Positions 9,963-57,942 of a stretch of 64,000 bases of DNA are shown piece after piece. The notes beneath the pieces are model-generated. The model saw nothing but the letters and a program-made list of their open reading frames with translations, was not told the DNA's origin and did no database searches. This stretch comes from a virus. How positions within the stretch are numbered: the stretch's first letter is position 1; each line of letters opens with the position of its first letter. The DNA lies in the IMG/VR virus record IMGVR_UViG_3300032164_000009, positions 1-64,000 of that record; one strand, given 5' to 3'. The translations under genes and the position numbers were made by a program.

Positions 9963-9990
9963 TTGACACCGGCCGGGCGGCTGGTAAATT
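9963..9990 (+). promoter_or_regulatory. Sigma70-type promoter of a structured leader or small RNA
   Basis: TTGACA (9963-9968), 16-base spacer, TAAATT (9985-9990). The predicted transcript opens with the paired element at 10004-10140. Confidence 0.6.
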
Positions 9991-23195: not shown

Positions 23196-23348
23196 GTGGG
23201 GAAGTCCGACGACTTGCCGTTGAAGCCGTGGCGCTTCCTCTGCAACCGCTGCAATGCAGAGTACCACCAAGACGTTATCCCGCCGCGCTGTGCCCGTTGC
23301 GGCCACCCGGAATTTCGGATCGAACACGCCGAGAGGAAGCAAGGATGA
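23196..23348 (+). CDS. 50-residue zinc-ribbon protein
   Basis: GTG 23196 after AAGGGAGAAGTGAA. CNRC (16-19) and CARC (32-35) form a two-knuckle zinc ribbon (FLCNRCNAEY ... PPRCARCGHPEF). Its TGA overlaps the ATG of the methyltransferase, so the two are probably co-translated. Confidence 0.7.
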   Translation: MGKSDDLPLKPWRFLCNRCNAEYHQDVIPPRCARCGHPEFRIEHAERKQG

Positions 23349-26800: not shown

Positions 26801-27543
26801 CCCTCCGCAACAACGAGCCGACCTGCTACCGTTGCGGCAAGCAGCCGTGCGAGTGCCGCGATGGTATCTGCTTGATTCACGCCGACTGCCGTTCAATCCT
26901 CCCGCTGCTGGAGCCGGGGAGCGTCGATTGCGTGGTGACGGACCCGCCGTATGGGATCTCGTATGAGAGCGGAATGACCGGGCACCATGGCGGGACCGCA
27001 TTGCCGGGCATCGTTGGGGATGACGACACCACGCTACGAGATTTCGTTTTAGCGTGGTGCCGCTCGCTCCCTGCAATAGTGTTTGGGACGTGGCGGGTAG
27101 CGCGCCCCGCTGGCTGCAAGGTTCTCTTGACGTGGGAAAAGGGCGACCATGTAGGCATGGGTGATCTTGCTATGCCGTGGAAGCCGAACACCGAAGAGAT
27201 TTACGTTATCGGTTCTGGATTCGCTGGCCATCGAGGAAGTTCCGTACTGCGCATAAATGCGCCGGTGACGTGGAACTCCACTGGGTTTGGCAGAAAGCAC
27301 CCCCATGAAAAGCCTGTCGAATTGATGGCGGACTTGATCGCCAAGTGCCCTCCGGGAACCATCCTCGACCCCTTCGCGGGATCGGGCACGACGCTCCGCG
27401 CCGCGAAGGACTTGGGACGCCGCGCCATCGGGATCGAGATCGAAGAGCGTTACTGTGCCATTGCCGCTCGTCGCCTGGAGCAAGAATGCCTACCGTTCGG
27501 CCCACCGGACGCACCGACCGAGACGCAGAGGACGATGCTATGA
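26797..27543 (+). CDS. DNA adenine/cytosine-N4 methyltransferase (DPPY type)
   Basis: 248 residues, ATGA-coupled. Tag CYRCGKQPCECRDG (10-23), motif IV TDPPYGISYE (DPPY at 49-52), motif I LDPFAGSGTT (FAGSGTT at 193-199), and a C-terminal tag variant (IAARRLEQECLPFG). Motif order IV-then-I defines the beta class. No target-recognition domain is obvious beyond residues 60-160. Probably protects phage DNA from host restriction. It appears intact. Confidence 0.9.
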   Translation: MTLRNNEPTCYRCGKQPCECRDGICLIHADCRSILPLLEPGSVDCVVTDPPYGISYESGMTGHHGGTALPGIVGDDDTTLRDFVLAWCRSLPAIVFGTWRVARPAGCKVLLTWEKGDHVGMGDLAMPWKPNTEEIYVIGSGFAGHRGSSVLRINAPVTWNSTGFGRKHPHEKPVELMADLIAKCPPGTILDPFAGSGTTLRAAKDLGRRAIGIEIEERYCAIAARRLEQECLPFGPPDAPTETQRTML

Positions 27544-29150
27544 CCCTCCGCAACAACGAGCCGACCTGCTACCGTTGCGGCAAGCAGCCCTGCGTGTGCC
27601 GAGACCGCGGCACGCTCTACCACGGCGATGCGCTCCAAGTGCTGCGAGGGCTGCCGGCGGGGATTATCCAGTGCTGCGTTACGTCACCGCCCTACTTCGC
27701 GCTACGCTCTTACCTGGCCAAAGACGATCCCCTGAAGCCGCTTGAGATCGGGTCGGAGCCGACGGTCGAGGCGTTTATTCAGGTGATGGTGGAGGTGTTT
27801 CGAGAAGTCAAGCGGGTGCTACGCGATGATGGGACCTTGTTCTTGAATCTCGGCGACAGTTACGATGCGGGAACATCGAGTAAACGGAAGCCGGGGTACG
27901 GCAAGCACGGCTACTGGAACAATGAGAACATCGACCAGCGCGTCACCGCCGGCCTTCCCCCCGGCAACCTCTTGAACATCCCCCACCGCGTCGCCGAGGC
28001 CCTCCGCGCCGACGGCTGGGTCTGGCGGCAGACGATAATTTTCGCCAAGAAATCACCGATGCCAGAAAGCGTGAGCGGGTGGAGGTGGGTGCGGTGTAGG
28101 GTGAAGGTGAATAATGGCGGTGGGGATTTGACTCCAAAGGAAACCGAATTACAGGCTATTGGACTGCATGGAATTGGGAGTGGGCTACATCAACCCGGCT
28201 GGCGAGAGGGCGCATCGTCGAAAAGTGTATTTATCCCCTGCCCCGGCTGCCCGAAGTGCGAGCCCTACAGTGGCTACGTGCTGAGGCGGGGCGCGGGGCG
28301 ATGCACGACGGCGCATGAATATGTCTTCGTGTTCGCCAAGTCGGGGAAATATTTTTGGGATGGGGAGGCCAGTAAGGAGAAGGCGCGGTACGGTCGCATG
28401 GAGTGGAAAGGCAATAAATACCAGTGTGTGCGGGAGGCTGATCCGAGGGATAAACGCGGCATTGTAGGTCAGCGTAGCACTGGGACAAAGCACGACCCAT
28501 CTGCCGGTCGCAACCCTCGCAATTTTTGGCTTTTGAGTAGCGAGCCAACTTCCGTCCGCCATTTCGCAACCTTCCCGTCCGAGTTGGTCCGTCGCTGTCT
28601 CGTTGCCGGCTGCTCTGCGAGCGGCTGCTGCCCGACGTGCAGGGCGCCGTGGGCCCCGGTGGTGGAGAGCGTCGATACGGGATTGACGCAAAAGATGGCC
28701 GACGGCTGGGATACCGGCGACGGTGGCCATGGGACCATCCATCGCGCTGGCCGAGAGAAAGGCAAGGCTGGCCTGCCTATCATGGCCACCAAGACGCTCG
28801 GCTACCGCCCGACCTGCTGCTGCTACACTTGGCATGATGGCACGATCCTCGATCCGAAGACGCTCCAGCCGGCGGGCACCCAGCCGGTGCTGGTCCGCGG
28901 CGAATACGGCGAGCCGGCCCAGCAACTCGTCCTTGACCCCTTCTGCGGCATCGGTACCACCGGCCAGACGGCCCTTCATCTGGGACACGCCTTCATCGGG
29001 ATTGATCTGAACAGCCGCTACCTGGACGTGGCAGCTACGCGCATCGCCGAGACGCCACGCTGGCGACTGCGGCAACTGATACGCGAAGGAAAAAAGGCGA
29101 GTGCGATTCCCGCCGCGAACCGCCTGCGCCAGGGGGTGCTGCCGATATGA
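27540..29150 (+). CDS. DNA N4-cytosine-type methyltransferase (SPPY) with large insertion
   Basis: 536 residues, ATGA-coupled; the first 50 bases are identical to the start of the gene at 26797. Tag CYRCGKQPCVCRDRG (10-24), motif IV TSPPYFALRSY (SPPY at 49-52, typical of N4-cytosine enzymes), then LFLNLGDSYD and WRQTIIFAKKSPMPES. A Cys-rich stretch (CPGCPKC; CSASGCCPTC) lies around residues 240 and 360, and motif I DPFCGIGTTG near 470. It ends with the common tag (NRLRQGVLPI). Intact by inspection. Confidence 0.9.
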   Translation: MTLRNNEPTCYRCGKQPCVCRDRGTLYHGDALQVLRGLPAGIIQCCVTSPPYFALRSYLAKDDPLKPLEIGSEPTVEAFIQVMVEVFREVKRVLRDDGTLFLNLGDSYDAGTSSKRKPGYGKHGYWNNENIDQRVTAGLPPGNLLNIPHRVAEALRADGWVWRQTIIFAKKSPMPESVSGWRWVRCRVKVNNGGGDLTPKETELQAIGLHGIGSGLHQPGWREGASSKSVFIPCPGCPKCEPYSGYVLRRGAGRCTTAHEYVFVFAKSGKYFWDGEASKEKARYGRMEWKGNKYQCVREADPRDKRGIVGQRSTGTKHDPSAGRNPRNFWLLSSEPTSVRHFATFPSELVRRCLVAGCSASGCCPTCRAPWAPVVESVDTGLTQKMADGWDTGDGGHGTIHRAGREKGKAGLPIMATKTLGYRPTCCCYTWHDGTILDPKTLQPAGTQPVLVRGEYGEPAQQLVLDPFCGIGTTGQTALHLGHAFIGIDLNSRYLDVAATRIAETPRWRLRQLIREGKKASAIPAANRLRQGVLPI

Positions 29151-35745: not shown

Positions 35746-38700
35746 ATGCCTACATGCACAACAAACGCCTCCGGGTTATGGTCGGCCGATGCCATTTGGT
35801 CAGTCACCGGGGCCGGCACGACGATGGGCGGGACCGATGGCGTGCTGGTTGATGGCACGTTGACGCCTACAGTTTCCCCGGTATGGACGGTATCTGCTCT
35901 GGTTGGACGGAGAATGAAATTAGGCAGTACCTGGTATTCCATTTCTGCCAACACTGCCACGGCGGCGACGATTACCAGTCCTCCCGCCAATGCCACATAC
36001 ACCTATCTGGTCGGCGGTCCCCCGATCGACAATGACGCGGTTGTTCTTGCCGCCCAATTTTCCATTACGATGGACGTGTCGCACTCGGGATGGACCAATG
36101 GAATGGCCGGGGTGGTTATAACGGGCCACGCCACAACTCCCGCGATGCTTGAATTCCATGCCGCAACGACTGGTTATCTATTACTGAAGACCGGGACGAC
36201 GTTATCGGGGACGACGGTCACGAATCGCGGCCGGCTCTGGGCAAGTTCTGTTGGGTTGTGGATCGCGCCGGCGGATCGGTCTGGCGCGGCGAGTGCGGTT
36301 AGCGCGGGCGGGGTTTTCACCCCCGGCACCGCTCCAGCGTGGGGAGCGGGAAGCCTGGTCGGATCGTCGATCACGATAGCGGCGGGCACCTACGTTATCC
36401 TCACTCACGACGCCACGAGCGTGCTGACGTGGACCGGCACTGTTCCCTCGGAGAACGCCACGGCGGGGGCATGGACGCTGAACGTGTTGCCGCTCCCGTT
36501 TGCCGATAAGGCGACGTTGGAATTCGCGGGTACGGCGGGCACTGCGAAGCTCCTCGCGAGCGACCTCGACATCGCTCTGTACTGCACGCAGCCGACGCTC
36601 GGGTCCGTGCGGACCTACGGCACGACCTTTTCGTTTACGACAAATTATGCGGTCGATAACAACCTCACGACCCCCGTGGCTCACGGTTGGGCGACTAACG
36701 GAAACAAACCCGTCCGAGTTTCGACTTCGGGTACGCTTCCTGCTGGGCTGACGGCAGGGACGCAGTATTATGTCCGCACGGTGGGATCGACAACGACTCT
36801 ATTGCTGTCAACAACGGCCTCGGATGTTGGGCTCGTAACGCTCACCGGCAACGGCACGGGCACGCATTACATTACCGAGGGGAGAATCAACGTCAGCAGT
36901 ATCGCCACCAACACGATCACCCTGGCCGCCACTCACGGATGGGCGAACGCCACGGCGATCATGTTCACGTCGAGCGGTACATACCCTACCGGCATCGTCG
37001 CCAATACGATGTACTGGGTCATCGGGGCCAGCGGTGCCACGTTGCAGTTGGCTGCTTATTCCGGCGGAACGGCGTTGACGCTAGGCACGTCATGGACCGG
37101 CACCCTGGAAGCCTACATTGGTGGGGCAACCGCAAACGCTACAGCCGTATTAGCCGTGCTGGATGATGTATTCACCGCTGAACCAACGTGGGTGACGACG
37201 GCTGGACACAACCGCGTGGTCTTGGCCGATGCGGGGCCGGCTGATTATGACCAGCAACGGTTGACGTTGGCGACGATTACGGCGACCACGATTACACTTT
37301 CGGCTAACGTGCTTTTGGCTAAATACCCGAATGCTCGAATTTATCTGGTCGCCCGCAACATCCTCATCAAGAGCAACACGACTGCCGCGACCAATATCAT
37401 CGACTGGGTGTCCTCGACGTTCACGGGGTCGGTGTTGCAGTGTGAGATTTGGTCGGCCGCAGGAGCTGGAGTTGGCGTTACTACGTTCTACGGCTATGGC
37501 ACCGGGGCCGGCACGTCGCACACGATCTCGGGCACGATCAGCGGGTGCAGCAGCGGCGTCAACGCCGGCACGTCGCACACGATCTCGGGCACGATCAGCG
37601 GGTGCAGCAGCGGCATCCGCGACAGCACGTCGAACACGTTATCCGGCACGATCAGCGGGTGCACCTACGGCGTCAGCTACGGCACGTCGCACACGGTCTC
37701 TGGCACGATCAGCGGGTGCACCTACGGCATCCGCGACAGCACGTCGAACACGTTATCCGGCACGATCAGCGGGTGCAACAACGGCACCAACGCCGGCACG
37801 TCGCACACGGTCTCTGGCACGATCAGCGGGTGCTACAACGGCATCAGCGCCGGCACGTCGCACACGGTCTCTGGCACGATCAGCGGGTGCAACAACGGCA
37901 TCAGCGGCGGCACGTCGCACACGATCTCCGGCACGATCAGCGGGTGCAGCTACGGCATCTACGCCGGCACTGGCTGCCTCAAGGGCTGCCAGTTCACCGG
38001 CAACACACAGGACATTTACCTCAACGGCGGTTGCTGGGAGGGTTGGGGCGCTGGGCTGCGGTCAACGACGCAAGTTGCCTATTACAAGCACTCCGATCTA
38101 GCCGTGGCCGACCTTCCGATCTACGTTGGAATCACGGACATCTGCGACGCGGCCGGCGCAATTCAGCTCGGCTACGTCGGCTGGTGGTGCCCTGGAGGCT
38201 ATACGAAGACGACGGCCTGGGTTTCTGGCACGCATGGTACACCGCCGATTACGCTTGCCGCTGTCCACGTCTCGACCGCCGAAGACTCCGACCGGGATTT
38301 CTGGGTCGAATTCCCGATTCTCGGCAAGTCGGGCTCCCCGATCACGGTCACGGTCTACCACAAGACCCACAACTACGTGTTTACCGTTACGGCCGCCACC
38401 GCTGCCGTAGGGGACACGTACACAAACAACGGTCAGACGTTTACGGTGTTTGCCGCAATAGCAGGCGGCACGACGTTATTGATGGCGGGCACAGGGGCTC
38501 CCGCTGCGAGTGGAAACTTGGTAAGAGTTACCGGCTCTGGTACAAATCCTATTGTATTTTCTGCTGCTTACTTAGCTTGGACGACGGCCCCGCTGATTGA
38601 GATTTGCGATCCGAACAAGGCGTGGAAGGCCAGCGGCGAAGTGCTTGCCTCCAGTTCGGCGTTCTCCGTGGCCGATACCGATTGGCACACCGACACGGCC

Positions 38701-39243: not shown

Positions 39244-40415
39244 GCCTAGGTACGCTGGACAACTGGGTATCCACGGCCATCGGCCCGCCGGTTATCGGTG
39301 AGACGATTGATCTGGATTCATGGGTGTCGAGTGCCATCAGCGCTGGACTGGTGGCGGTGAGTGGGGCCGCATCACTAATCGTTCAGAATTCGGCGTGTCT
39401 TGTCGAATCCGGAAACGTCGCACTCACCCAACATCAGGTCCTCGCAGTTCAGGCATCCAACTGCCTCATCACTTCGGGCAACGTCGTACTGGCTCAACAC
39501 TACGGGCCACTGACCGTTCAGGCCTCGGAGTGCGTAGTCGAGTCGGGCAATGTCGCCCTGGTTCAGCATCAAGCCATTGCCGTTCAGGCCTCGGAGTGCG
39601 TAGTCGAGTCGGGCAATGTCGCCCTGGTTCAGCATCAAGCGCTCGCTGTCGCGGGTGCGGAATCTGTTGTCGAATCGGAGAATGTCGGACTCATTCAGCA
39701 TCAGGTCTTGGCGGTTGGCGATGCGGACTCGGCCGTCGAATCCGGTGCTCCTGTCCTTGTGCAACACTACGGGCCGTTGAGCGTCGGGGGCTGCGAATGC
39801 CTTGTCGAGTCGGGCGGTGTCATCCTGACCCAGCACCAGACTCTTTCCGCCGACAATGCGGAATCCATCTGCGAATCGCAGGGTGTCGCCCTGACACAAC
39901 ACCAGGCGCTCGTCATCGGTGGCGCGGAAATCGTCGTCGCCTCCAGTGCCTGCGAGTTGACCCAACACCAGACGTTGAGCGTCGATGATTCGGCTGCTGT
40001 GGTCGAGTCAGAGAGTCCCGCCTTGACGCAGCATCAGGTTTTGGCAGCGACCGATTCAGAGTCGGTTATCGAGTCAGAGTCTCCGGCGCTCACGCAACAC
40101 CAGCTATTGGCGGTTGCTGATTCAGAATCCGGCGTCGAATCTGGCGAAGCGGCCCTGATCCAGCACCATGCGCTCGCGGTTCAGAATAGCGCGGTGGTTG
40201 TCGAGTCGGGCGACATTGCGCTCGTCTATCATCCAGTCTCTCTCAGCGTGCAGAATTGCCAGTGCGGCATAACTTCGGATTTAATCGCGCTGGTGCAGCA
40301 TCAATCGTTGACGGTTTCAGATGCGGACTGCCTCGTCACTTCAGGCAACGTCGTGCTTGGATTCGGCGGGCAAGGTATTGTGTTTCAACATCAATCACTT
40401 TTACTTGCGATTTAG
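39240..40415 (+). CDS. Repeat-rich structural protein with 22-residue QHQ units
   Basis: 391 residues, ATGA-coupled to the fibre gene. After a 50-residue head (LDNWVSTAIGPPVIGETIDL) there are about 15 units such as VQASECVVESGNVALVQHQA. The pattern (A/S)-x-x-C/S-x-V-x-S-x-x-x-x-L-x-Q-H resembles repeat proteins with H-x(n)-ADN-V-x-L motifs in phage virions. A fibrous, beta-structured shaft is likely. The last residues (GIVFQHQSLLLAI) are a degraded unit. Confidence 0.85.
   Translation: MSLGTLDNWVSTAIGPPVIGETIDLDSWVSSAISAGLVAVSGAASLIVQNSACLVESGNVALTQHQVLAVQASNCLITSGNVVLAQHYGPLTVQASECVVESGNVALVQHQAIAVQASECVVESGNVALVQHQALAVAGAESVVESENVGLIQHQVLAVGDADSAVESGAPVLVQHYGPLSVGGCECLVESGGVILTQHQTLSADNAESICESQGVALTQHQALVIGGAEIVVASSACELTQHQTLSVDDSAAVVESESPALTQHQVLAATDSESVIESESPALTQHQLLAVADSESGVESGEAALIQHHALAVQNSAVVVESGDIALVYHPVSLSVQNCQCGITSDLIALVQHQSLTVSDADCLVTSGNVVLGFGGQGIVFQHQSLLLAI
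39519..39650 (+). repeat. Near-exact 66-base tandem duplication
   Basis: Two neighbouring 22-codon units are identical over about 58 bases, while other units are only 40-60 percent alike. A recent duplication. Confidence 0.85.
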
Positions 40416-44331: not shown

Positions 44332-46278
44332 GTGGCGTTCTATTGGCATTGGAGCAATGAGCATCGCCGGGTGATTGCGGCTATCGAGCGGAGCGTCAAG
44401 GAGGGTTTGATTTTGGCGTTTGCGATGCCTAGGGGAAGCGGGAAAACGGCGATCTGCCGAATGGCGGTATTGTGGGCCGCGTCGTGGGGCCTGAGTTACT
44501 ACGTCTACCTGATCGGTGCGAATGAACCGGCCGCCTTAAAAAACCTCGAAGCCGTCAAGGGCTGGATGCGAGCCCTCCATCCCTACGTCGATGACTTTCC
44601 AGAGATTTCTTGTGCGGTGGTGAAGCTCGGCAAGATCGCGCAGCGCGCCGCTGGCCAGCTTCAGAACGGCCAGCCGACCGACATTGTTTGGGAGACGAAC
44701 CGAATCGTCCTGCCCCGTGTCCAGGCCCCGCCCAATCTTCCAAAATGCGATCAGCGACCCGATGGAATGGCCGCGAGTTCGCAGGTAGTTATTGCCGTAT
44801 CTGGTCTCACCGGGGAGGGCATCCGCGGCAGTTTATTTGCCGATTCGATTACAGGGGCCCTGCGGCGGCCAGACCTTATCCTGCTCGACGATCCGCAGAC
44901 CGATGAGTCGGCTAAATCGCTCCAACAGAATGCGGACCGCGAAGAGTTGATTGCGGGAGCCGTGCTCGGATTGGCTAATCCTGATAGACCGTCGGCCGTG
45001 GTGATGCCTTGCACGGTCATTCGGCGAGGCGATATGGTTGATCGGATTCTCGATCGAAAGCGCAACCCGACGTGGCGTGGAATCCGGACGGCTTTTTTCA
45101 AGTCCATGCCTACCGACAAGGCAGCGTGGGAAGCGTATGAAGCCGAGTACCGGGAGGCCCTGGGACAGGACGTACCGGATCGGGCCCGGCTGAACCGCTA
45201 CTACCGAGAGCATCGGGCGGAACTGGATAAGGGGGCCGAAGTCTCATGGATTCAGCGCAAGACGTGGGAAGTGTCGGGGGTTCAGCATGGGATGCACCTC
45301 TTTTTTCAGAAGCGCTCGACATTTTTTGCGGAGTACCAGAACGATCCGCAAGAAGAGCGGAGCCCCCATTCCGTTTTGACGGCTGCTATCGTAATGAGTA
45401 AGGCGGCTGGATTGCCGTGCGGTACTATGCCACTCAATTGCGAGCACGTCGCGGCTTATTGTGACGTTCACGGGCGAGTACTCTACTGGCTGGTATCGGC
45501 GTGGTCGCAAAATTTTGGCGGTGGAGTGATCGACTACGGCACCTGGCCGCGACAGAACCGTGCATACTTTTCCCAGGAGTCGGCCCCGGTCGTCTTGGAA
45601 GACATCTATCCCGGTTTAGTCGATGATGCCCGAATCACGGCTGGCCTTCAGGCCGTGGCAGACGTATTGCTGGCGCGAAAGTTCACTCGTGAAGATGGGG
45701 CGGAATTCAAGATTGGAAAACTTTTGTTTGATGCCAAGTGGGGCGAGAAAAATGCCCTGGTCAAAGCATTCTGTCGGCGGCACCCCGCCTATCCGGAAAT
45801 AGTTTTCCCCGCGCAGGGCTTAGGGATTGGGGCAAGCTCGAAGCCTTTCAATGAATACCGGCCGGAGCATGGGGCACGGATTGGCGAGCATTGGCGTATC
45901 CCGCCAGCAGTGAAGGGCGACCGTTGGGTGACCATTGACACGAATTGGTGGAAGAGTATCGCCGCGAGCCGGTTAGCGATGGCCATCGGCACGCCCGGCG
46001 GCTGGCAACTGTTCGGGCGAGACCCGCAAGAACACGAACTATTCGCGGACCATTGCATCGCTGAGGAGCCTGTCGAAACTACGGCAAAGGGCCGGACTGT
46101 TGACGAATGGAAGTGGAAACCGGGGCGGCCGGACAATCATTGGTGGGACTGTTTAGTGGGGTCTGCGGTGGCTGGGTCGATGCTTGGCGTGCCGATGGCC
46201 GGGGGGAAGGTACGGAAGGCCATAGCCGATCCGATGCAGCGACCTTCGGCGGCGGACGTGGCGAGAGGGGGAAAGTGA
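44332..46278 (+). CDS. terL: Terminase large subunit
   Basis: 648 residues from GTG 44332. Walker A PRGSGKT (33-39), Walker B LILLDDP near 185, and a C-terminal nuclease half (YCDVHGRVLYWLVSAWSQ; WDCLVG) identify a lambda GpA-like packaging ATPase/nuclease. The matching reading frame is open upstream to about 44122 and encodes plausible N-terminal sequence (SDPLSDQHEYDRERSRRRQQ; AVFCTTYNPVAF), yet contains no ATG, GTG or TTG. A GTG at 44074 would reach it only through the TAG at 44119. The true start is therefore unresolved. Confidence 0.92.
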   Translation: MAFYWHWSNEHRRVIAAIERSVKEGLILAFAMPRGSGKTAICRMAVLWAASWGLSYYVYLIGANEPAALKNLEAVKGWMRALHPYVDDFPEISCAVVKLGKIAQRAAGQLQNGQPTDIVWETNRIVLPRVQAPPNLPKCDQRPDGMAASSQVVIAVSGLTGEGIRGSLFADSITGALRRPDLILLDDPQTDESAKSLQQNADREELIAGAVLGLANPDRPSAVVMPCTVIRRGDMVDRILDRKRNPTWRGIRTAFFKSMPTDKAAWEAYEAEYREALGQDVPDRARLNRYYREHRAELDKGAEVSWIQRKTWEVSGVQHGMHLFFQKRSTFFAEYQNDPQEERSPHSVLTAAIVMSKAAGLPCGTMPLNCEHVAAYCDVHGRVLYWLVSAWSQNFGGGVIDYGTWPRQNRAYFSQESAPVVLEDIYPGLVDDARITAGLQAVADVLLARKFTREDGAEFKIGKLLFDAKWGEKNALVKAFCRRHPAYPEIVFPAQGLGIGASSKPFNEYRPEHGARIGEHWRIPPAVKGDRWVTIDTNWWKSIAASRLAMAIGTPGGWQLFGRDPQEHELFADHCIAEEPVETTAKGRTVDEWKWKPGRPDNHWWDCLVGSAVAGSMLGVPMAGGKVRKAIADPMQRPSAADVARGGK

Positions 46279-48655: not shown

Positions 48656-49306
48656 ATGATGTACGAAGCGAAGTTTTCCCTGACCGGCGACATGCCCCTC
48701 ATTATGCACCAGGACGATGTTGAGGCGTCCGATACCTTAATGGCCTGGCGCAAGGCCCCCGAGAACAAAAACCTGAGCGTGGCTGGCGATGATCGCAGCC
48801 CGCCCTGGACGTGGCAGACCTACCTCTATTCGGACGGAGAGAACGTCACGATCCCCGCCCAAAATCTTATGGTTGCCATCCGGCAGGCCGGCACTCAGAT
48901 TATCCTGAAGAAACAGAAGACCTACAAGGAGATCAGCCAGAGTGGGTTGTTGATTCCGACTGAGTATCTGGACTTCAGCACGGCCGGGCGGAAGGTCGAG
49001 ATTGGCGAGATTGAGGCGGTGCGAGATTTGCCGTTTCAAGAGCAATCGGAGGCGGCCCGCAAACTCGGCTTTCGACTATTCATCAAGCGCGCCGTCATCG
49101 GCAAGGCCAAGCACGTTCGGGTCCGGCCCCGCTTCGATGTGTGGGAACTGGCTGGCACGATTCGCGTTTTGGTCCCTGAGATCACTTGGGACGTGCTTGG
49201 CAAGTTGTTTGAACTGGCCGGGCGGGTCGGGCTTTGCGACTGGCGGCCGGGGTGTAAGACGCCGGGGCCCTACGGGATGTTCACGGCGAAAGTGACAAAA
49301 TGCTAG
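48656..49306 (+). CDS. RAMP/Cas7-like protein next to the pentamer arrays
   Basis: 216 residues; ATG after CTAAAGGAGTGCAGTCTA. The order of motifs resembles RAMP-fold proteins by eye: an N-terminal strand plus MPLIMHQDDVEASD, a ligand-type IPAQNLMVAIRQAG (like the I-P-G-S-S-x-x-G-x-x-R of Cas7/Csm3), a KRAVIGKAKHVRVRPRF strand pair and a C-terminal glycine loop (GRVGLCDWRPGCKTPGPYGM). Related uncharacterised proteins occur in many phages. The first array begins at the base after its stop codon. RNA binding is an inference; no nuclease motif is seen. Confidence 0.85.
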   Translation: MMYEAKFSLTGDMPLIMHQDDVEASDTLMAWRKAPENKNLSVAGDDRSPPWTWQTYLYSDGENVTIPAQNLMVAIRQAGTQIILKKQKTYKEISQSGLLIPTEYLDFSTAGRKVEIGEIEAVRDLPFQEQSEAARKLGFRLFIKRAVIGKAKHVRVRPRFDVWELAGTIRVLVPEITWDVLGKLFELAGRVGLCDWRPGCKTPGPYGMFTAKVTKC

Positions 49307-49434
49307 GGTTCGGCATTGTTGGGTCAGGTACGGCCCGGTATGGCTCGGTAGAGCAAGGTCCGGTCTGGCAAGGCTGGGCACGGCCCGGCAGAGCGTGGTG
49401 AGGTAAGGTTCGGCGTGGCAAGGGCGCAGAGCGC
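49307..49434 (+). repeat. GGYNN pentamer array 1 (24 units) with hairpin
   Basis: Starts at the base after the upstream stop codon. 24 consecutive 5-base units from GGTTC to GGGCG with no insertion or deletion. It ends in GCGC-AGA-GCGC (49424-49434). The two AGCNN units follow units ending in AG. Confidence 0.93.
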
Positions 49435-49462
49435 AGGGAATAGGGAGAATTAAACCAATCTC

Positions 49463-49575
49463 GGCTCGGTAGGGCAAGGCGTGGCGTTGTCAGGCAAGGC
49501 ATGGTCGGGCTTGGTAGTGTGCGGCCGGGTCCGGCGCGGTCCGGTCGGGCGCGGCAAGGCGAGGGCGCAGAGCAC
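49463..49575 (+). repeat. GGYNN pentamer array 2 (21 units) with hairpin
   Basis: 21 units, 49463-49567, ending GGCGA-GGGCG, then GCGC-AGA-GCAC (one mismatched pair). The A-rich spacer GGAACGAGAAACGAAATAAG follows. Confidence 0.93.
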
Positions 49576-49600
49576 ACGGAACGAGAAACGAAATAAGTTA

Positions 49601-49748
49601 TGTACGGTGCGGTTCGGTCCGGCGTGGTCTGGCAGAGCACGGTGCGGTGCGGCCGGGTGGGGTTCGGCACGGCAGAGCCTGGTGAGGTCCGGCAAGCCTC
49701 GGCTGAGCTAGGCATGGCCGGGCCAGGCAAGGCAAGGGCACAGAGTGC
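49601..49748 (+). repeat. GGYNN pentamer array 3 (28 units) with hairpin
   Basis: 28 units, 49601-49740, beginning with the variant TGTAC and ending GGCAA-GGGCA, then GCAC-AGA-GTGC (49738-49748). Longest array. Confidence 0.93.
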
Positions 49749-49775
49749 AAGGAGCGGAGAAAACGAAACAACTAT

Positions 49776-49898
49776 GGTTCGGTACGGTTCGGCCTGGCTG
49801 GCCTCGGCATGGCATGGTGGGGTCCGGTTCGGTAGGGTCCGGCTTGGCAGAGCAAGGCGCGGCACGGCACGGCAAGGCGGGGCGAGGGTGCAGAGCAC
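49776..49898 (+). repeat. GGYNN pentamer array 4 (23 units) with hairpin
   Basis: 23 units, 49776-49890, ending GGCGA-GGGTG, then GTGC-AGA-GCAC (49888-49898). The spacer after it is nearly the same as that after array 2. Confidence 0.93.
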
Positions 49899-49924
49899 AC
49901 GGAACGAGAAACCAAATAAGCTAA

Positions 49925-50027
49925 GGTCGGGCAGGGCTTGGTCCGGCTTGGTCCGGCAAGGTTAGGCATGGCATGGTCGAGCGCGGTGCGGCGCGGCAGA
50001 GCATGGTTTGGCGAGGGTACTGAGTAC
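49925..50027 (+). repeat. GGYNN pentamer array 5 (19 units) with hairpin
   Basis: 19 units, 49925-50019, ending GGCGA-GGGTA, then GTAC-TGA-GTAC (50017-50027). The loop is TGA instead of AGA. The next gene starts 30 bases on. Confidence 0.93.
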
Positions 50028-50056
50028 AAAACTTTAACCAGTGCAGAGGAGTGAAA

Positions 50057-50551
50057 ATGTTCAAGTCAGATTCGGAAAGCAGAGCGGCGGGCGAGCGACT
50101 TTGGCGGACGTTCGGCGACAAGTCGCGGGGCGAGACGATCACTTGGTCGAACCTTGAGGCGGTCATGGGCCGGACCCGGATTGAACCGGGCGGTTGGCAT
50201 ATCATCCGGCGTTTTCGTAAGCGGCTTCTCCGAGAGCGCCGGATTGTCACGCTTCCGGCCGATACCGTGGGCTTGCGCTTGTTGACTCACCAGGAGACAG
50301 CCCGAGAGGTGCCGGCGTTGCGACAACGGCGGGCATATCGACAGATCAACCGATGCCTAAAGGAAACCGCAACCGTCGATGGAACCGGCTTGACGGATCA
50401 CGAGCGGAAGGTACTGGCGGTGCAACGGCACAATCTCGCCTTTCAGCGGCTTCAGATCGGGCGGTCGCGCCGGCAGTTGGTGCAGGGGACGAAGAAAACC
50501 GAGGTCAATCCGTTACGGAAAGAGAAGGCCGCCGAATTAGTGGGAGCATAA
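50057..50551 (+). CDS. Small basic protein with possible winged helix, between arrays 5 and 6
   Basis: 164 residues; ATG 50057 after GCAGAGGAGTGAAA. N-terminal half LWRTFGDKSRGETITWSNLE then HIIRRFRKRLLRERRIV is a probable winged helix. The C-terminal half is basic and helical (LRQRRAYRQINRCLKETATV; LAVQRHNLAFQRLQIGRSRR). I recall similar proteins in unrelated phages. Position between arrays suggests it acts with them or with their RNA. Confidence 0.8.
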   Translation: MFKSDSESRAAGERLWRTFGDKSRGETITWSNLEAVMGRTRIEPGGWHIIRRFRKRLLRERRIVTLPADTVGLRLLTHQETAREVPALRQRRAYRQINRCLKETATVDGTGLTDHERKVLAVQRHNLAFQRLQIGRSRRQLVQGTKKTEVNPLRKEKAAELVGA

Positions 50552-50560
50552 CTGCGATTG

Positions 50561-50663
50561 GGCTGGGCAAGGCTAGGCGCGGCAGGGCCCGGCTTGGCAG
50601 AGCGTGGCAGGGTTCGGCGGGGCCGGGTGCGGTTCGGCTACGCATGGCAAGGGGACTGAGTCC
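50561..50663 (+). repeat. GGYNN pentamer array 6 (19 units) with hairpin
   Basis: 19 units, 50561-50655, ending GGCAA-GGGGA, then GGAC-TGA-GTCC (50653-50663). It is separated from the other five by the 50057 gene and is followed 25 bases later by the second nested-stem RNA element. Confidence 0.93.
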
Positions 50664-51221: not shown

Positions 51222-51419
51222 ATGGCAGATGACCTCTCCGACCTGATTGAAACCGCCGTCGAGGCCCCGCAGTCCGTGACTGTGGCCGGCGGCAGCGTTG
51301 CATCTCGCCCCCTCCCCGAGTTGATCGAGGCGGATAAGTATCTGGCTGCCAAGCGGGCCCGCACCAAGAACCACTGCGGCCTCATCTTCCGCACCCTTGA
51401 ACCCGGAGGTTGCGGGTGA
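51222..51419 (+). CDS. gpW-like small head-tail joining protein
   Basis: 65 residues. MADDLSDLIETAVEAPQSVT then RPLPELIEADKYLAAKRARTK has the size, helix-hairpin layout and position (between terminase region and portal) of lambda gpW-type joining proteins. Its 3' end overlaps the portal start. It is preceded by the third nested-stem RNA element. Confidence 0.75.
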   Translation: MADDLSDLIETAVEAPQSVTVAGGSVASRPLPELIEADKYLAAKRARTKNHCGLIFRTLEPGGCG

Positions 51420-52948
51420 ACCTGTTTGGTCGAATTCGCCGTGCATTCTCCCGGGCCCCGGCAGTCCGTCCCTCGCCTGAGATAGGCCGCCCCGTTCGCG
51501 GACGCTATGACGCCGCGGGCTATGGGACCGAGACCAAGAATATCTGGCTCAACGCGGACGCCCTCGATGCTGACGCCGCGAATTCTCTGGCCGTGCGAAA
51601 GAACCTTCGCCAGCGCTCACGATACGAGCGGACCAACAACGGGCACGCATCGGGGATTGTCGGGACGCAGGCAAACTACGTCATCGGAACCGGGCCGAAG
51701 TTGCGGATGCAGACCGGTTCAACCGGGTTCAATCGGATGATTGAGGCGAGGTGGGGCAGTTGGTGTGCGGCCACCCACTTCATGCGGAAACTCCGCACTC
51801 TCAATAAGGCCAAGACCGGCGACGGCGAAGCGTTTGGTCATTTTCGCACCAACCCTGGTCTAGCCGATCCGGTGAAGTTGGATCTCCGCACCTTGGAGTG
51901 CGACCAGATTACGGCACCGGCGTTGACCGCGATCAACGATGAAAACTACATCGACGGTATCCGCTTCGATGAATGGGGCAACGTCATCAGTTATGAGGTG
52001 CTCGACTGCCATCCTGGGGCCCTCTGGTCTTGGATCGGGGCCCGCGACGGATACCAGACGATCCCCGCCAAGTTCATGGCCCATTGGTTCAACGAAGATC
52101 GCAGCGGGCAGCATCGCGGGGTTCCTGAGATCACGCCGACTCTGAATTTGTTCGGCACGGGTCGGCGATACCGCGAAGCGGTTGTTGCGGCGGCTGAGAC
52201 GGCGGCCGACTTCTCGGCGATTGTCAACATGGGCTCGCCGGATGATACCGGCCCTGATCAACTCCGACCATTCAGTACCTTTCCAATCGACAAGCGGACG
52301 TTGATGGTCAGTCCGGCCGGATCGACCACCACTCAACTCAAGCCCGAGCAGCCGGCGACTAGCTACGTTGACTTCACACGCTCGATGCTTTGCGAAGAGG
52401 CCCGACCGCTGAACATGCCGTACAACATCGCGGCGTGCGATTCCAGCGACTACAGCTTCAGCGGCGGGCGGCTGGATCACCTGACCTATTACGTGAGCGT
52501 GGGCGTCGAGCGACAAGATTGCGAAACCCTCGTCTTGGAGAAAGCCTTCGCGCTCTGGTTTGCCGAGGCAATTCTCCGCTACGGCTGGACAGTTCCGGCC
52601 GAACCCGCCCCCCGGCACTCATGGGGCTGGCCGGCAATGCCGCAGATCGACCAGGAAAAGACGGCGAACGCTCGCAAGACCTCTATGGGCCTGGGCATTC
52701 AATCTCCCAGCCGCGTTGGCGACGAAGACGGCTACGACGATGAGGACGAGTTGGAAGTGCTGGCCACGGATCATGGCGTAACCGTCGAGGAGATGCGGGA
52801 GATTCGCCGCGAGTCGATCTTCGCCCAGTCCGCGGCCCCTCCGGTCAAGACGAATACCGACGGAGATCAACCCGCCTCAGACAAGAGCCTGCCGCCGTCC
52901 AAGGTCGCACCCAAACGCAATGGTGCCACACGAGGAGCGTTCGTATGA
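51416..52948 (+). CDS. Portal protein (lambda GpB family)
   Basis: 510 residues from GTG 51416 (CCGGAGGTTGCGG upstream). RYDAAGYGTETKNIWLNADA, then NNGHASGIVGTQANYVIGTG and LDCHPGALW and MAHWFNEDRSGQHRGVPEIT are the lambda-type portal motifs. It forms the dodecameric entry at one capsid vertex. The acidic C-terminal region (DEDGYDDEDELEVLATDHGV) is typical. ATGA-coupled to the protease-capsid gene. Confidence 0.93.
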   Translation: MNLFGRIRRAFSRAPAVRPSPEIGRPVRGRYDAAGYGTETKNIWLNADALDADAANSLAVRKNLRQRSRYERTNNGHASGIVGTQANYVIGTGPKLRMQTGSTGFNRMIEARWGSWCAATHFMRKLRTLNKAKTGDGEAFGHFRTNPGLADPVKLDLRTLECDQITAPALTAINDENYIDGIRFDEWGNVISYEVLDCHPGALWSWIGARDGYQTIPAKFMAHWFNEDRSGQHRGVPEITPTLNLFGTGRRYREAVVAAAETAADFSAIVNMGSPDDTGPDQLRPFSTFPIDKRTLMVSPAGSTTTQLKPEQPATSYVDFTRSMLCEEARPLNMPYNIAACDSSDYSFSGGRLDHLTYYVSVGVERQDCETLVLEKAFALWFAEAILRYGWTVPAEPAPRHSWGWPAMPQIDQEKTANARKTSMGLGIQSPSRVGDEDGYDDEDELEVLATDHGVTVEEMREIRRESIFAQSAAPPVKTNTDGDQPASDKSLPPSKVAPKRNGATRGAFV

Positions 52949-55104
52949 AAAAGCACGCGGCACGCCACGTCAAGGCCCGCATGATTCGAGCCGCCCAAAA
53001 ATGCGGAATGATCCAGGCCGAAGCCGTCGCCGTCGAGTGGATTCAAGCCGCCGAAGGCGAATCCGCCGACAAGCCGATTCGCTTCACCATGACGGCCTAC
53101 ACCGGCGGGCCGATGCGAGTGGACGGTTACTACGATCCGGTCGTTATCGATCTGGAAGGTCTGGAAGCCAAGCCGCCTTTCCCGAGTCTTCGTGACCATG
53201 ACATGGGGCAGATCGTCGGGCACATCGACGAGGCCGAGATCGGGTCGGTGGTCAAGGTTGGCGGCATCATCTCCGGGGCCAATGAATTCGCCGCTCAGGT
53301 TGTGAGCAGTTCCAAAGCCGGCTTCCCCTGGAAAGCCTCGATCGGCGCGATGCCCGCCGCGAACGGGTTGGAGTTCATCGGCGACGGTATCAGTACGAAA
53401 GTCAATGGCAAGTCGTTTAAGGGACCGCTCATCATCGCCCGCAAGGCCACGGTGCGTGAAGTCTCATTTGTGGCGATTGGTGCAGACGCCAAAACCTCAG
53501 TCAAAGTTGCGGCGTCCGCCGCGAATTCCAAGGAGATCGAAAACATGAAACCCGAACTGCAAACGTACATCGAGGCGATGGGACTGGTCGTGAGCGAACT
53601 TCGCGACGACACGATCGCCAAGATCAAGACCAAGTACGATGCCGACCTGAAGGCCGCAACGGAGGCCGCCGCAATCAAGGCGAAGGCCACGGAAAAGCCG
53701 CCGGAGGCGGTCAAGGTCGAACCCCCGGCGTTCGATCTGCGATCGACGATCCTCTGCTACGAGAAGCACGTCGCCATCATCCAGGCCAAGGCCGCCGAGT
53801 ATGCCGGCAAGATCGACGCCGCCGCGCTGGCTCCGGTCATGGCCAAGGCCCAACAGGACGCGGCGCAGTTGAAACTCCAGGCGCTCAAGGAAGAGTGGTC
53901 GCCGGTCAAACTCGAAGCGGCTTACGTCATGCCCGCGGCGATCTTCGCTGCGGACCTGATGGGCCTGGAGCGACCCAAGGGTCCGGCCATTCACGGGAGT
54001 CCGCGGGACTTGCAACCGCAGGTTATCGAGGCGGCCTTTGCTCAGTCCTGCGGACTCAAGCAACCCGAAAAGCATTACAAGCCGGAGATTCTCGAAGCGG
54101 CTGACAAGCACTTCCGCAACATCGGCATCCAAGAGGTGCTCCTGATCCACGCCCAGGCCGCCGGCTATGCAGGCCGCCAGAAGATCACCGTCGGCAATCT
54201 CCGCGAGGTTATGAATGCCGCCTTTTCGACACACACCCTCACCACGCTGCTGACGACTACGGGCAACAAGATTCTGCTCGAAGGGTTCAACCAGATCCCG
54301 CAGTCATGGCGGGAGATTGCCGAGATCGGAAACGTCGTGGATTTCAAGACCGTGACGCGCTTCCGCCTGACGGCCGACATGCAATACGAAGAGGTTGGCG
54401 CGGCTGGCGAACTCAAGCACGGCACGGTCGGCCAAGAGACCTACACGATGGCCGCGAAGACCTACGGCAAGATGGCGGCCTTCACTCGCCAAGACATTAT
54501 CAACGATGACTTGGGTGCGCTGAACGCGGTCCGAAGCCGTCTTGGTCTCGGCGGTGCGATCAAGTTGCAGAATGTCTTCTGGACGGTCTGGATCGATAAC
54601 ACCGCCTTCTTTACTGGAGCCCGGGCGAATCTCGTTACGGGAAGCACCCTGGGCGACACGGGACTCGCAACCGCCATCGCAGCCTTCCGCAACATGGCGG
54701 GACCGGATGGGAACAAGTTGAACCTGGAGCCGGCCGTCTTGCTCGTTCCGCCTTCCTTGGAAGCCACGGCCCGGAAGTTCTACGTCAGCCAGGAACTCCG
54801 CGACACGAGCGCAAGCACGCGACTGGCGACGGCGAACATCTACTACAACCGCTTCCGCCCGGTCGTGGTGCCTGAGTTGGAAACAGCGTCCTTCGGCGGT
54901 GCCTACAGCGCCTCGACCTGGTATCTGCTCGCCGCTCCGACGGTTCTTGCGACCGCCGTGATGTGCTTCCTCGACGGCCAACAGGCTCCGACGATCGAGA
55001 GCAGTGACGCGGACTTCGATACGCTCGGAATCCAGTTCCGGGCGTATCACGACTTCGGGGCGGCGTTCTCCGAGTATCGTGCCGGCGTCAAGGCGACGGC
55101 ATGA
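52945..55104 (+). CDS. Fused prohead protease, scaffold and major capsid protein
   Basis: 719 residues in one frame. Residues 1-195 are a prohead serine protease of the S78 type (SLRDHDMGQIVGHIDEAEIG with His85; FPWKASIGAMP with Ser132). Residues about 200-290 are Lys/Glu/Ala-rich coiled coil, scaffold-like. Residues about 380-719 are a major capsid protein of the gpT/HK97 fold (FNQIPQSWREIAEIGNVVDF; STRLATANIYYNRFRPVVVP; FDTLGIQFRAYHDFGAAFSE). Most phages encode these separately. Self-cleavage during maturation is expected. Confidence 0.92.
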   Translation: MKKHAARHVKARMIRAAQKCGMIQAEAVAVEWIQAAEGESADKPIRFTMTAYTGGPMRVDGYYDPVVIDLEGLEAKPPFPSLRDHDMGQIVGHIDEAEIGSVVKVGGIISGANEFAAQVVSSSKAGFPWKASIGAMPAANGLEFIGDGISTKVNGKSFKGPLIIARKATVREVSFVAIGADAKTSVKVAASAANSKEIENMKPELQTYIEAMGLVVSELRDDTIAKIKTKYDADLKAATEAAAIKAKATEKPPEAVKVEPPAFDLRSTILCYEKHVAIIQAKAAEYAGKIDAAALAPVMAKAQQDAAQLKLQALKEEWSPVKLEAAYVMPAAIFAADLMGLERPKGPAIHGSPRDLQPQVIEAAFAQSCGLKQPEKHYKPEILEAADKHFRNIGIQEVLLIHAQAAGYAGRQKITVGNLREVMNAAFSTHTLTTLLTTTGNKILLEGFNQIPQSWREIAEIGNVVDFKTVTRFRLTADMQYEEVGAAGELKHGTVGQETYTMAAKTYGKMAAFTRQDIINDDLGALNAVRSRLGLGGAIKLQNVFWTVWIDNTAFFTGARANLVTGSTLGDTGLATAIAAFRNMAGPDGNKLNLEPAVLLVPPSLEATARKFYVSQELRDTSASTRLATANIYYNRFRPVVVPELETASFGGAYSASTWYLLAAPTVLATAVMCFLDGQQAPTIESSDADFDTLGIQFRAYHDFGAAFSEYRAGVKATA

Positions 55105-55165
55105 CCATAGGCGGGCCAGATGCCCGAAACATTACCCGCAACTAGTTTTTTGAGGAGACTTGAAA

Positions 55166-56563
55166 ATGGCTCAGACCCCTTGCCTTTTCTTCGCAAAAGG
55201 TCACGTGATCGACTACACGCCCGACGCGGCTGTTGCCGCGGGGGCCGTAGTGTTGCTTGGCACCAGCCCCCTGATCGCGCCCTCGGCGATTCCGGCCGCC
55301 ACAAAGGGCGTCCTTAGTTGCTCCGGCATTTGGAAAGTGCCGCAGGTGAACGCGGTTTTCACGGCCGGTGATGCGGTGTACTGGGACGTGGACGGCTCGC
55401 CTTATGGCGGGACGGCCCTTTCCGGTGCCGCGACTGGCACGTCCAGCGCTGGCTACTTGTTGGGTCGGGTGGTCTTCACCACAACCGCAACCGACACCTA
55501 TGTCTATGTCCAACTGACGGCGATCAAGCTGACTGCCACGACTGCCGGGGCTGTGGACGCTACCGATATTACGGGCTCCGATTCGTCCCTCGGCATCAAC
55601 GGAAAGGCCGGAACCAGCGGGGCCGGCGGTGATGTTGTAATGACCGGTGGCGCCGCGGCGACCGGAGGCGGTGGCGTACTCACTTTCGCCGGTGGTGCCG
55701 GTGCGGCTGGAGTCGGCGGAGCCATCAGCGCGACCGGAGGTGCTGGAAACGGTGCCTATGCCGGCGGTGCCTTTACGGTGGTCGCTGGGGCCGGTGGAGC
55801 GGCCGGGGCCGGCGGTGCCGTTAGCCTGACCGGTGGCGCACCCGCGAGCGGGAACGCTGTTGGCGGCAACTCCAGCATCATCGCTGGCCGCGGAAGCGGG
55901 AACGCCGTCGGTGGGTCCGTGATCTGCACCGGTGGAGCCGGTGGGGCCTCTGGGACCGGGGCCGGTGGGCCGGTGAACGTCACCGGCGGAGTCGGTGGAA
56001 CGAGTGGAACCGGGGCCGGCGGGGCGATTGCGATCGCCGCTGGCGCTGGTGGTGGTGGAACCGCCAACGGCGGAGCCCTCACGATCTATTCGGGTGCGCC
56101 CTACAGCACGGGGACGGCCGGAGACGTGACGATCGACACCGGAAATCAGGGCTCGGGTACTGCTGGCGCGTTGTCGATCGGTGCCGCCTATGCCGGGTCG
56201 ATGACCATCGGTCGCACGGCAGCGGCTATCGCCGTTGCGGGCCGTCCGACCTTTGCCCTGATGCCCCGCTTGACGCCGGCAACCGTTGCCGCCGCCAACT
56301 CGGCCCAGAACAACGGGGGCCTGATACTGGAAGGGTTCACGCTCGTGACGGCGGCCGATGGGACGAAGGCCGTTGTGCTCCCGTCCGCTGTGGCCGGGAT
56401 GTGCGTCATTCTCCACAACGTCGTTGACAATATCCTCAAGGTGTTCCCGGCGGCTAGCGACAAGATCAACGGTGCCGCCGCCAACGCGGTCTTCAATCAG
56501 ACGAATCTGACGTTGCGGAGTTATTACGCATACGACGCTACCGACTGGTATGTCAGTCCTTGA
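55166..56563 (+). CDS. DUF2190-type decoration protein with glycine-rich extension
   Basis: 465 residues; ATG 55166 after TTGAGGAGACTTGAAA. Residues 1-115 (MAQTPCLFFAKGHVIDYTPD; AGYLLGRVVFTTTATDTYVY) are a DUF2190 barrel, which decorates capsids. Residues about 150-330 are a low-complexity GAGGAVSLTGGAP-type stretch, beta-solenoid or collagen-like. The end (LILEGFTLVTAADGTKAVVL; TNLTLRSYYAYDATDWYVSP) is a small beta domain seen on virion fibres. Probably a capsid-attached fibre. Confidence 0.87.
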   Translation: MAQTPCLFFAKGHVIDYTPDAAVAAGAVVLLGTSPLIAPSAIPAATKGVLSCSGIWKVPQVNAVFTAGDAVYWDVDGSPYGGTALSGAATGTSSAGYLLGRVVFTTTATDTYVYVQLTAIKLTATTAGAVDATDITGSDSSLGINGKAGTSGAGGDVVMTGGAAATGGGGVLTFAGGAGAAGVGGAISATGGAGNGAYAGGAFTVVAGAGGAAGAGGAVSLTGGAPASGNAVGGNSSIIAGRGSGNAVGGSVICTGGAGGASGTGAGGPVNVTGGVGGTSGTGAGGAIAIAAGAGGGGTANGGALTIYSGAPYSTGTAGDVTIDTGNQGSGTAGALSIGAAYAGSMTIGRTAAAIAVAGRPTFALMPRLTPATVAAANSAQNNGGLILEGFTLVTAADGTKAVVLPSAVAGMCVILHNVVDNILKVFPAASDKINGAAANAVFNQTNLTLRSYYAYDATDWYVSP

Positions 56564-56578
56564 CCTTCCTCCTTGCTA

Positions 56579-56625
56579 CCGGGGGCGGGTTTTGCTTCCA
56601 ACCCGCCCCCGGCCGCTCTTTTTTT
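56579..56625 (+). terminator. Strong rho-independent terminator in the head operon
   Basis: CCGGGGGCGGGTT (56579-56591) pairs perfectly, over 13 bases, with AACCCGCCCCCGG (56600-56612) and is followed by a T run (56619-56625). It separates the decoration-protein gene from the methyltransferase-glycosyltransferase gene. Confidence 0.85.
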
Positions 56626-56634
56626 GGAAACAAC

Positions 56635-57942
56635 ATGGCAACCGCTACGATTGACGTGCAGGCTATCCGCGGCTGGCTCTCTGAAGAGGAGGCGGTCGAG
56701 TTGGGCCGTCTCGCCACTGGCGAAAAGGTCCTGGAGGTTGGGTCATATTGCGGACGATCCACCGCAATCATGGCGAAGGTTGCCCGCCATGTAATCGCCA
56801 TCGACGATTTCCGCGGCCTCACGTCCGACGATTCTCCGGATGACCTACGGGAGGAATTCTTCCGTAACCTCACCGCCGCCGGGGTCCAGTCCAAGGTGAC
56901 GGTGCTTATCGGCTCGCTCCAGGAGATTCTTCCGACGCAAAGCCTTTCTTCGATTAGCATGGTCTTCTATGATGCAGACCATTCTTTCGCCTCTACGCTG
57001 TGCGGGTTGCGATCACTGATCGCCGCGGGACTTTCGCCGTCTGCAAGGATTGTCTGCCACGACTACGCGGAGGTGGACCACGGCGTTATCGAGGCCGTGG
57101 ATGCGTTTGCCCGCGAAACCGGCCGGACCTTCCGGTGCGTCGATTCGCTGGCAATCTTCGATCCGGCCGAAACCCTTTCTGCCCCGCCTTCTTATCGGGT
57201 CATGCTCGGGGCACCAGGGCCGACGATTTCCTGGGGCACCGTCTGCGGGATGCTCCTGCTGGCCGAGAGTCATCACGAGATTCAAGTCACCAACTCGGAT
57301 AACGGCTGGGATGACTTCAATGAGGTCTGGTGCCGAGCCCTGAACGCGGCAAGGGAAGGCAAGGCCACGCATTTCGTCCAGTGTCATTCCGACATAACGC
57401 CGCAAGGCCCGTGGCTTGATACGCTGATTGGCGAACTGGACGCCCACGATCTGGATTTCGTGTCGGCGGTCTGTCCGATCAAAGATGGCCGCGGCGTGAC
57501 ATCGAGCGGTATCGGCGATCCGGGCAATCGCTGGCAGCCTTGGCGGCGTTTCACGATGCAGGAGGTCTGCGGATTCCCGGAGACGTTCACTGCGGCCGAT
57601 GTCGGCTATGCAAACTGGCCCTTGCTCCACAATACCGGCTGCTGGGCCGCCGACCTGCGGAAGCCGGTTTTCTTCGAGACCGATTGCGGCGATACGCTCA
57701 AGGCTTTTTTCCAATTCGACACGCGAATCTATCGCGCGGCCGACGGTTCGTGGAAGACGGCCCGCGAATCGGAAGACTGGTACTTCTCGCGATGCCTTTG
57801 GCAACTCGGCGCAAAGACGGCTATTACCCGCAAGGTCCGTCTGAGTCACCGTGGCGTGATGGAATACAACAACTATGAGCCTTGGGGCAAGTATCGCGAC
57901 GGCGACCAAGACACGAAACACAAGTGGGGCCGCAAGGAATGA
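56635..57942 (+). CDS. Fusion of class I methyltransferase and glycosyltransferase-like domains
   Basis: 435 residues; ATG 56635 lies past the terminator. Residues 1-190 are a SAM-dependent methyltransferase of the Methyltransf_24 type (VLEVGSYCGRSTAIMAKVAR motif I; VFYDADHSFAST; IVCHDYAEVDHGV). Residues about 200-435 resemble GT2-like glycosyltransferases used on phage surfaces (LLAESHHEIQVTNSDNGWDD; HFVQCHSDITPQGPW; LHNTGCWAADLR; EDWYFSRCLWQLG). The domain order suggests a sugar-modifying enzyme acting on capsid proteins or DNA. Confidence 0.85.
   Translation: MATATIDVQAIRGWLSEEEAVELGRLATGEKVLEVGSYCGRSTAIMAKVARHVIAIDDFRGLTSDDSPDDLREEFFRNLTAAGVQSKVTVLIGSLQEILPTQSLSSISMVFYDADHSFASTLCGLRSLIAAGLSPSARIVCHDYAEVDHGVIEAVDAFARETGRTFRCVDSLAIFDPAETLSAPPSYRVMLGAPGPTISWGTVCGMLLLAESHHEIQVTNSDNGWDDFNEVWCRALNAAREGKATHFVQCHSDITPQGPWLDTLIGELDAHDLDFVSAVCPIKDGRGVTSSGIGDPGNRWQPWRRFTMQEVCGFPETFTAADVGYANWPLLHNTGCWAADLRKPVFFETDCGDTLKAFFQFDTRIYRAADGSWKTARESEDWYFSRCLWQLGAKTAITRKVRLSHRGVMEYNNYEPWGKYRDGDQDTKHKWGRKE

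Follow-up and report, generated by a model that had tools for sequence, protein, structure and literature searches.

The closest described relative of the locus reported here is VIPR (Viral Interference Programmable Repeat), a phage-encoded, CRISPR-like system presented in a bioRxiv preprint of April 2026 (PMC13142463). It pairs a RAMP protein, Vipr, with vrRNAs made of 9–16 YNNGG repeats (the range for SUSP1 and P. fulva) and a structured tail, together with an accessory vap gene; DNA is read through the NN pairs, one base being skipped between them, and seven VIPR types are distinguished. For the system of Escherichia phage SUSP1 the preprint demonstrates vrRNA expression, Vipr–vrRNA complexes, DNA binding and transcriptional repression, and its main text names as targets the lysis-lysogeny regulators of prophages besides a satellite phage. 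Here we analyse positions 1 to 64,000 of IMG/VR virus record IMGVR_UViG_3300032164_000009 (64,000 nucleotides, hereafter the window), in which six arrays of a 5-base unit, GGYNN, lie beside a gene for a small RAMP protein. Taken as a whole, the locus is best explained, with a probability of roughly 0.92, as a VIPR locus whose arrays are vrRNAs, arrays 1–4 decoding to capsid sequence and the likely outcome being the silencing of rivals' capsids. The original prediction, made from the sequence alone, held that the arrays matched no known repeat class; this did not survive comparison with the preprint, whose vrRNAs they match, and the kind of system is therefore already known, having been published months earlier. 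The present locus contributes longer guides and a minimal tail, it allows the code to be tested independently, and it points to capsid genes as inferred targets.

The six arrays are genuine and far beyond chance. With every phase scored they contain 127 clean units, all on the + strand and without an internal insertion or deletion in any array. Position 1 of the unit is G in 114 of the 127 and position 2 in 125, position 3 is C or T without exception, positions 4 and 5 are mixed, and a perfect GGY is found in 112 units. A single-phase fit places 16–22 units in each array as against at most eight in 500 dinucleotide shuffles, which bears out the earlier description of six phase-locked arrays with positions 4 and 5 free. 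The counts first given (24, 21, 28, 23, 19 and 19 units) were right in that no array contains an indel and too high in that one or two degenerate units had been added at the 5′ end of each; the clean counts are 23, 20, 26, 22, 18 and 18. The view that the arrays are non-coding and that their 5-base spacing is under selection is likewise supported, as relatives keep the phase. No further GGYNN array occurs in the rest of the window or in the remaining 3 kb of the contig, which is 67,003 bases long. As a separate observation, units between 49307 and 50650 begin with A only where the preceding unit ends in G, in nine of 30 such cases and in none of the 91 others (Fisher p 1.3e-6), a trend that is weaker over the whole data set (p 1e-4).

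Each array ends in a short hairpin (Table 1), and the stem is fully paired in five of the six, array 2 being the exception. For covariation we collected tails from the window and its relatives, 11 with a 4-bp stem and 18 with a 5-bp stem. In the 4-bp form 97.7% of cells are paired and 11 are altered on both sides; in the 5-bp form all cells (100%) are paired and 22 are altered on both sides. The covariation scores, 0.59 for the 4-bp stem (0.20 when shuffled) and 0.67 for the 5-bp stem (0.10 when shuffled), were reached by none of 500 shuffles for either form, nor by any slide of the stem. The covarying terminal hairpin that had been proposed is thus confirmed, and neither phase drift nor loss of the stem, which had been named in advance as observations that would speak for neutral slippage, was seen in relatives, which retain both phase and pairing. 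Rfam gave no family at its gathering threshold in the window and around the arrays only weak permissive matches, and our literature search on pentanucleotide repeats in phage genomes found none.

The first array begins at the base immediately after the stop codon of the vipr gene. Its product belongs to a family in which all 67 members match phrog_4652, a family without assigned function, and whose profile retrieves a solved chain, PDB 36pp_D, the 'SUSP1 Vipr protein' (E 6.4e-45, one solved chain). An AlphaFold2 model of high confidence (pLDDT 96.2, pTM 0.90) resembles, by Foldseek, Csm3/Cas7-type CRISPR subunits of type VII and Csm systems (E 4e-6, probability 1.0). The protein is a single-domain RAMP with the C-terminal glycine-rich loop expected of Vipr and carries the conserved motif GxxVGxGDxRPxxxxxxGRF. 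The association between protein and arrays was also recovered from the DNA side. A scan of IMG/VR with a GGYNN-only pattern, which is blind to proteins and which carries out the search that the original prediction had proposed, returned at least 120 stretches; 91 of the 120 listed encode a Vipr homologue, almost always on the strand of the array, and the median distance between Vipr gene and array is 22.5 nt (114 Vipr loci, combined set). Conversely, loci fetched by the Vipr protein carry arrays in 13 of 13 viral and nine of nine bacterial or archaeal cases, and 52 control viral stretches (494 kb, fetched with unrelated patterns) contain neither Vipr nor arrays.

The product of the accessory gene (P0002) belongs to a family that adjoins vipr in 44 loci, the profile having been built with arrays masked, and this profile matches the gene downstream of vipr in SUSP1 (E 1.8e-20 in a one-sequence search, hhalign probability 97). 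Because of this relationship the locus is probably of VIPR type II (vap1). The AlphaFold2 model of P0002 (pLDDT 92) weakly resembles winged-helix regulators.

We read the NN dinucleotides of successive units against DNA with the published one-nucleotide skip and with other skips. Within about 400 nt of arrays, skip 1 gave seven matches at E<1e-3, whereas skips 0, 2 and 3 gave none; over the contigs that carry the arrays, 24 matches at E<1e-2 were found for skip 1 as against one, two and four for the other skips. A codon-position composition test of the NN bases gave a weak, suggestive result. As a side observation, the seven self-adjacent skip-1 matches lie about 30–320 nt from their own array, with about 70–80% NN identity, in a minority of VIPR loci: L075 at 1085-1125 and 461-498, L126 at 4096-4130 (reverse complement), L066 at 2240-2277, L105 at 2327-2373, L052 at 495-532 and L037 at 9944-9981. 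These matches hint at autoregulation, of which the preprint's main text makes no mention. In eight other VIPR contigs no own-gene target was convincing at the peptide level.

In the window, decoding leads to one gene. Arrays 1, 3 and 4 have their best skip-1 match in the 64 kb within one stretch of about 160 bp at the 3′ end of the resident major capsid gene (array 4 at 54949-55013, array 1 at 55006-55073, array 3 at 55030-55106), in each case antisense and with the skipped base falling on the wobble position, codon position 3; the best decoded peptide of array 2 also lies within this protein. When the 273 reading frames with 100 codons or more were ranked by summed z, the capsid frame came out on top at 27.7, the runner-up scoring 8.0, and reading the arrays on the opposite strand gives no comparable top frame among the 273. 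On this gene the skip-1 antisense reading scores z 7.0 for array 1 and 9.3 for array 4, as against at most 2.1 for other skips or the other strand.

Foreign homologues fit better than the phage's own gene. Across three capsid genes, the own one and those of L206 and L207, arrays 1, 2 and 4 score z 4.5–13 at homologous positions and array 3 scores 5.3–6.1; in L206, an independently fetched homologue, arrays 2 and 4 reach 13.1 and 12.0, again at homologous positions and better than on self. Array 3 aligns with the capsid gene of L273, an Acidobacteriota integrative element, as SWRVYFDFGAALVDPRAAVRSKGEA, with 38 of 50 NN bases identical when the last unit is omitted, and other skips of array 3 give nothing against the capsid. 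When 386 arrays were compared all-against-all with 2.2 Mb of sequence, this pair was the top hit (38/50, E 5e-7) and array 4 against the capsid gene of G004 was the second (31/42, E 2e-4). Compared over equal lengths, the own capsid and the best foreign one score 29/52 and 38/52 for array 3, 29/44 and 32/44 for array 4, and 28/46 and 29/46 for array 1. The three genomes that supplied the capsid homologues nearest to the targets all belong to a single small class of Acidobacteriota, the phylum that includes Geothrix.

Decoded in this way, with a one-nucleotide skip, antisense and with the skip on the wobble base, arrays 1–4 yield fragments of a major capsid protein. VIPR guides read the DNA of competing elements through NN pairs with one skipped base, and at the level of sequence these arrays do the same, with a best NN identity of 76%. 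The residues decoded from array 1 differ from those of array 3, although both arrays cover one stretch of the capsid; they appear to represent different capsid lineages, so that at least two rival lineages would be covered; from the decoded capsid pieces the phage seems armed to silence its rivals' capsid genes. The proteins scanned on the 14.7-kb L273 contig (1-14652) with the array 3 target include two large serine-type integrases, a capsid-protease, an HNH/metallopeptidase-like product and a primase but neither a portal protein nor a terminase, which suggests a candidate capsid-carrying satellite.

Table 1. Features of the VIPR locus and of the capsid gene in the window
Feature	Coordinates	Strand	Description
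vipr gene (P0001)	48656-49306	+	216 aa; RAMP protein, expected vrRNA coat; phrog_4652
vrRNA 1	49307-49434	+	23 units and hairpin; decodes antisense to major capsid protein
Clean array 1	49307-49421	+	23 units
vrRNA 1 hairpin	49424-49434	+	GCGC-AGA-GCGC
vrRNA 2	49463-49575	+	20 units and hairpin; decodes to internal capsid part, peptide level
Clean array 2	49463-49562	+	20 units
vrRNA 2 hairpin	49565-49575	+	GCGC-AGA-GCAC, one C-A mismatch
vrRNA 3	49606-49748	+	26 units and hairpin; decodes to L273 Acidobacteriota element capsid C-terminus, 38/50 NN
Clean array 3	49606-49735	+	26 units
vrRNA 3 hairpin	49738-49748	+	GCAC-AGA-GTGC
vrRNA 4	49776-49898	+	22 units and hairpin; decodes to capsid C-terminal region
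Clean array 4	49776-49885	+	22 units
vrRNA 4 hairpin	49888-49898	+	GTGC-AGA-GCAC
vrRNA 5	49925-50027	+	18 units and hairpin; no target match found
Clean array 5	49925-50014	+	18 units
vrRNA 5 hairpin	50017-50027	+	GTAC-TGA-GTAC
vap1-type accessory gene (P0002)	50051-50551	+	166 aa; family beside vipr
vrRNA 6	50561-50663	+	18 units and hairpin; no target match found
Clean array 6	50561-50650	+	18 units
vrRNA 6 hairpin	50653-50663	+	GGAC-TGA-GTCC
Own protease/major capsid gene	52945-55104	+	PF25209, phrog_4523; homologue of inferred targets

Several results weigh against reading the locus as a VIPR that silences foreign capsid genes. The comparisons yielded no near-perfect target, the best NN identity staying at 76% (array 3, last unit omitted), and because it is only this high the real target strains are probably not among the sequences compared. 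Scans of IMG/VR with exact 8-unit skip-1 patterns from arrays 1, 3, 4, 5 and 6 returned chance hits only, with at most 36% identity outside the core. The target of array 2 is backed at the peptide level and not by the DNA match taken alone, no target emerged for arrays 5 and 6 in the capsid comparisons run, the AlphaFold model of Vipr is a monomer, and the guides are 18–26 units long where 9–16 are reported, several relatives also exceeding 16. Decoded peptides searched by hmmscan and tblastn against PHROGs and isolate phages gave nothing.

Alternatively, the guides might serve to time late expression by targeting the capsid gene of the phage itself, with imperfect matches tuning the degree of repression. 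The best own-contig matches of arrays 1, 3 and 4 do all fall at the 3′ end of that gene, and the minority of arrays elsewhere with about 70–80% skip-1 matches no more than about 300 nt away could be autoregulatory. For arrays 3, 4 and 1, however, the best foreign capsids give closer matches than the own one does, and the different sequences that arrays 1 and 3 place on a single own stretch are more readily explained by two foreign lineages than by one resident gene. We consider self-regulation of the capsid unlikely.

A reading in which the NN bases carry no meaning is far less probable still. RNA targets of TRAP consist of 11 triplets of the GAGNN type, repeats about 5 nt apart that are bound by an oligomer, and the fixed 5-base period, the untranslated gaps beside genes and the adjoining RAMP protein would all suit a track on vipr/vap mRNA for a ring- or filament-forming regulator of that sort. 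Yet the TRAP motif is (G/U)AG and has no guide function, whereas the unit here is GGY, and the NN bases are not random, since with one particular combination of skip, strand and frame they yield capsid sequence. The position of the arrays between the genes for TerL (44332-46278) and portal (51410-52948) could likewise recall a packaging site, or a DNA site for replication or recombination, if not neutral low-complexity sequence; in Trine and SUSP1, though, the same gene-array module sits beside a DNA polymerase or DNA ligase gene, and the association with Vipr, the covarying tails and the decoded targets are not expected of a DNA site or of low-complexity sequence, so that we give this explanation hardly any credence. 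That the NN bases carry information also led us to set aside G-quadruplexes, along with the TRAP-like and packaging-site explanations.

Judged on its sequence, the locus has every VIPR feature that can be assessed in this way save the guide range. It resembles the type II (vap1) system of SUSP1 in its RAMP Vipr, its adjacent vap gene, its several GGY/NN vrRNAs flanking the genes and its structured 3′ tail, and the one-nucleotide skip code was recovered here independently. It differs in that its guides have 18–26 units and not 9–16 (SUSP1's own arrays have 10–15 by the scan we used), in that a bare hairpin of 4 bp with a 3-nt loop takes the place of a pseudoknot, in that five of the six guides lie between vipr and vap, and in that capsid genes are decoded where the preprint's main text names other targets. 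With class 1 CRISPR-Cas systems (Csm3/Cas7 backbone) it shares a related RAMP fold and an expected backbone coating the guide RNA, but those systems have a 6-nt period with one flipped base and a contiguous spacer; here no CRISPR repeats are found among the tandem repeats of the window and no cas genes by Pfam or PHROGs near the arrays. TIGR-Tas (tandem interspaced guide RNAs; PMC12045711) also sets a tandem guide array of phage origin beside one protein gene, though the layout of the array differs.

On the VIPR interpretation, each array with its hairpin would be one vrRNA. Vipr, as a small Cas7-like RAMP protein, would form a polymer on this RNA in which every GGY is bound and every NN pair is exposed, and the resulting ribonucleoprotein would recognise double-stranded DNA through NN pairs that leave out one base between them. 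Once bound it would block transcription, and rival phages or satellites would thereby be stopped from making capsids. By analogy with the published system, we infer that the vrRNAs are transcribed, that the ribonucleoprotein assembles and that the window phage silences its rivals' capsid genes in this way. We lean somewhat towards a more particular proposal, namely a long-guide branch of VIPR in which guides of 18–26 units read 53–77 bp of the major capsid gene in rival phages and capsid-carrying satellites, at least two capsid lineages per phage, with a gapped code that fits codon positions 1 and 2 and tolerates the wobble base, and with a minority of autoregulatory guides.

The noncontiguous one-nucleotide-skip code, proposed in a single 2026 preprint, gains independent support here at the sequence level from an environmental phage that is unrelated. 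The results also indicate that arrays can be decoded as degenerate peptides, making targets recognisable through diverged homologues even if the databases lack the exact target genome. If the interpretation is true, phages silence each other's shell genes and those of satellites, a class of target not named in the preprint's main text.

A few further observations concern VIPR in other genomes and the remainder of the window. The isolated Gordonia phage Trine (L142, at 7998-8573 and 8631-8799) encodes a Vipr, gp41, and shortly downstream of it two GGYNN arrays; these arrays fall under the annotated start of gene 40, the homologous vap part of which begins only at 8885. SUSP1 Vipr matches at least 134 isolate phage records, 117 of the 134 at 90% identity or more and mostly from Felixounavirus-like enterobacterial phages; a Vipr is also present in a record labelled Staphylococcus phage SA1, a label that may be wrong. 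Other VIPR architectures are seen in L064, L117, L025, L070 and L173, with up to 26 array blocks or a single run of 140 units. The window itself also carries three methyltransferase genes (27345-29150, 23228-24943 and 56560-57942), the first two of which, DNA N6/N4 methylases, have an extra 220–300 residues in mid-protein relative to their families. Tandem repeats of 57 bases (37507-37970) and 66 bases (39474-39703) lie inside open reading frames, both periods being multiples of three, and probably belong to virion repeat proteins.
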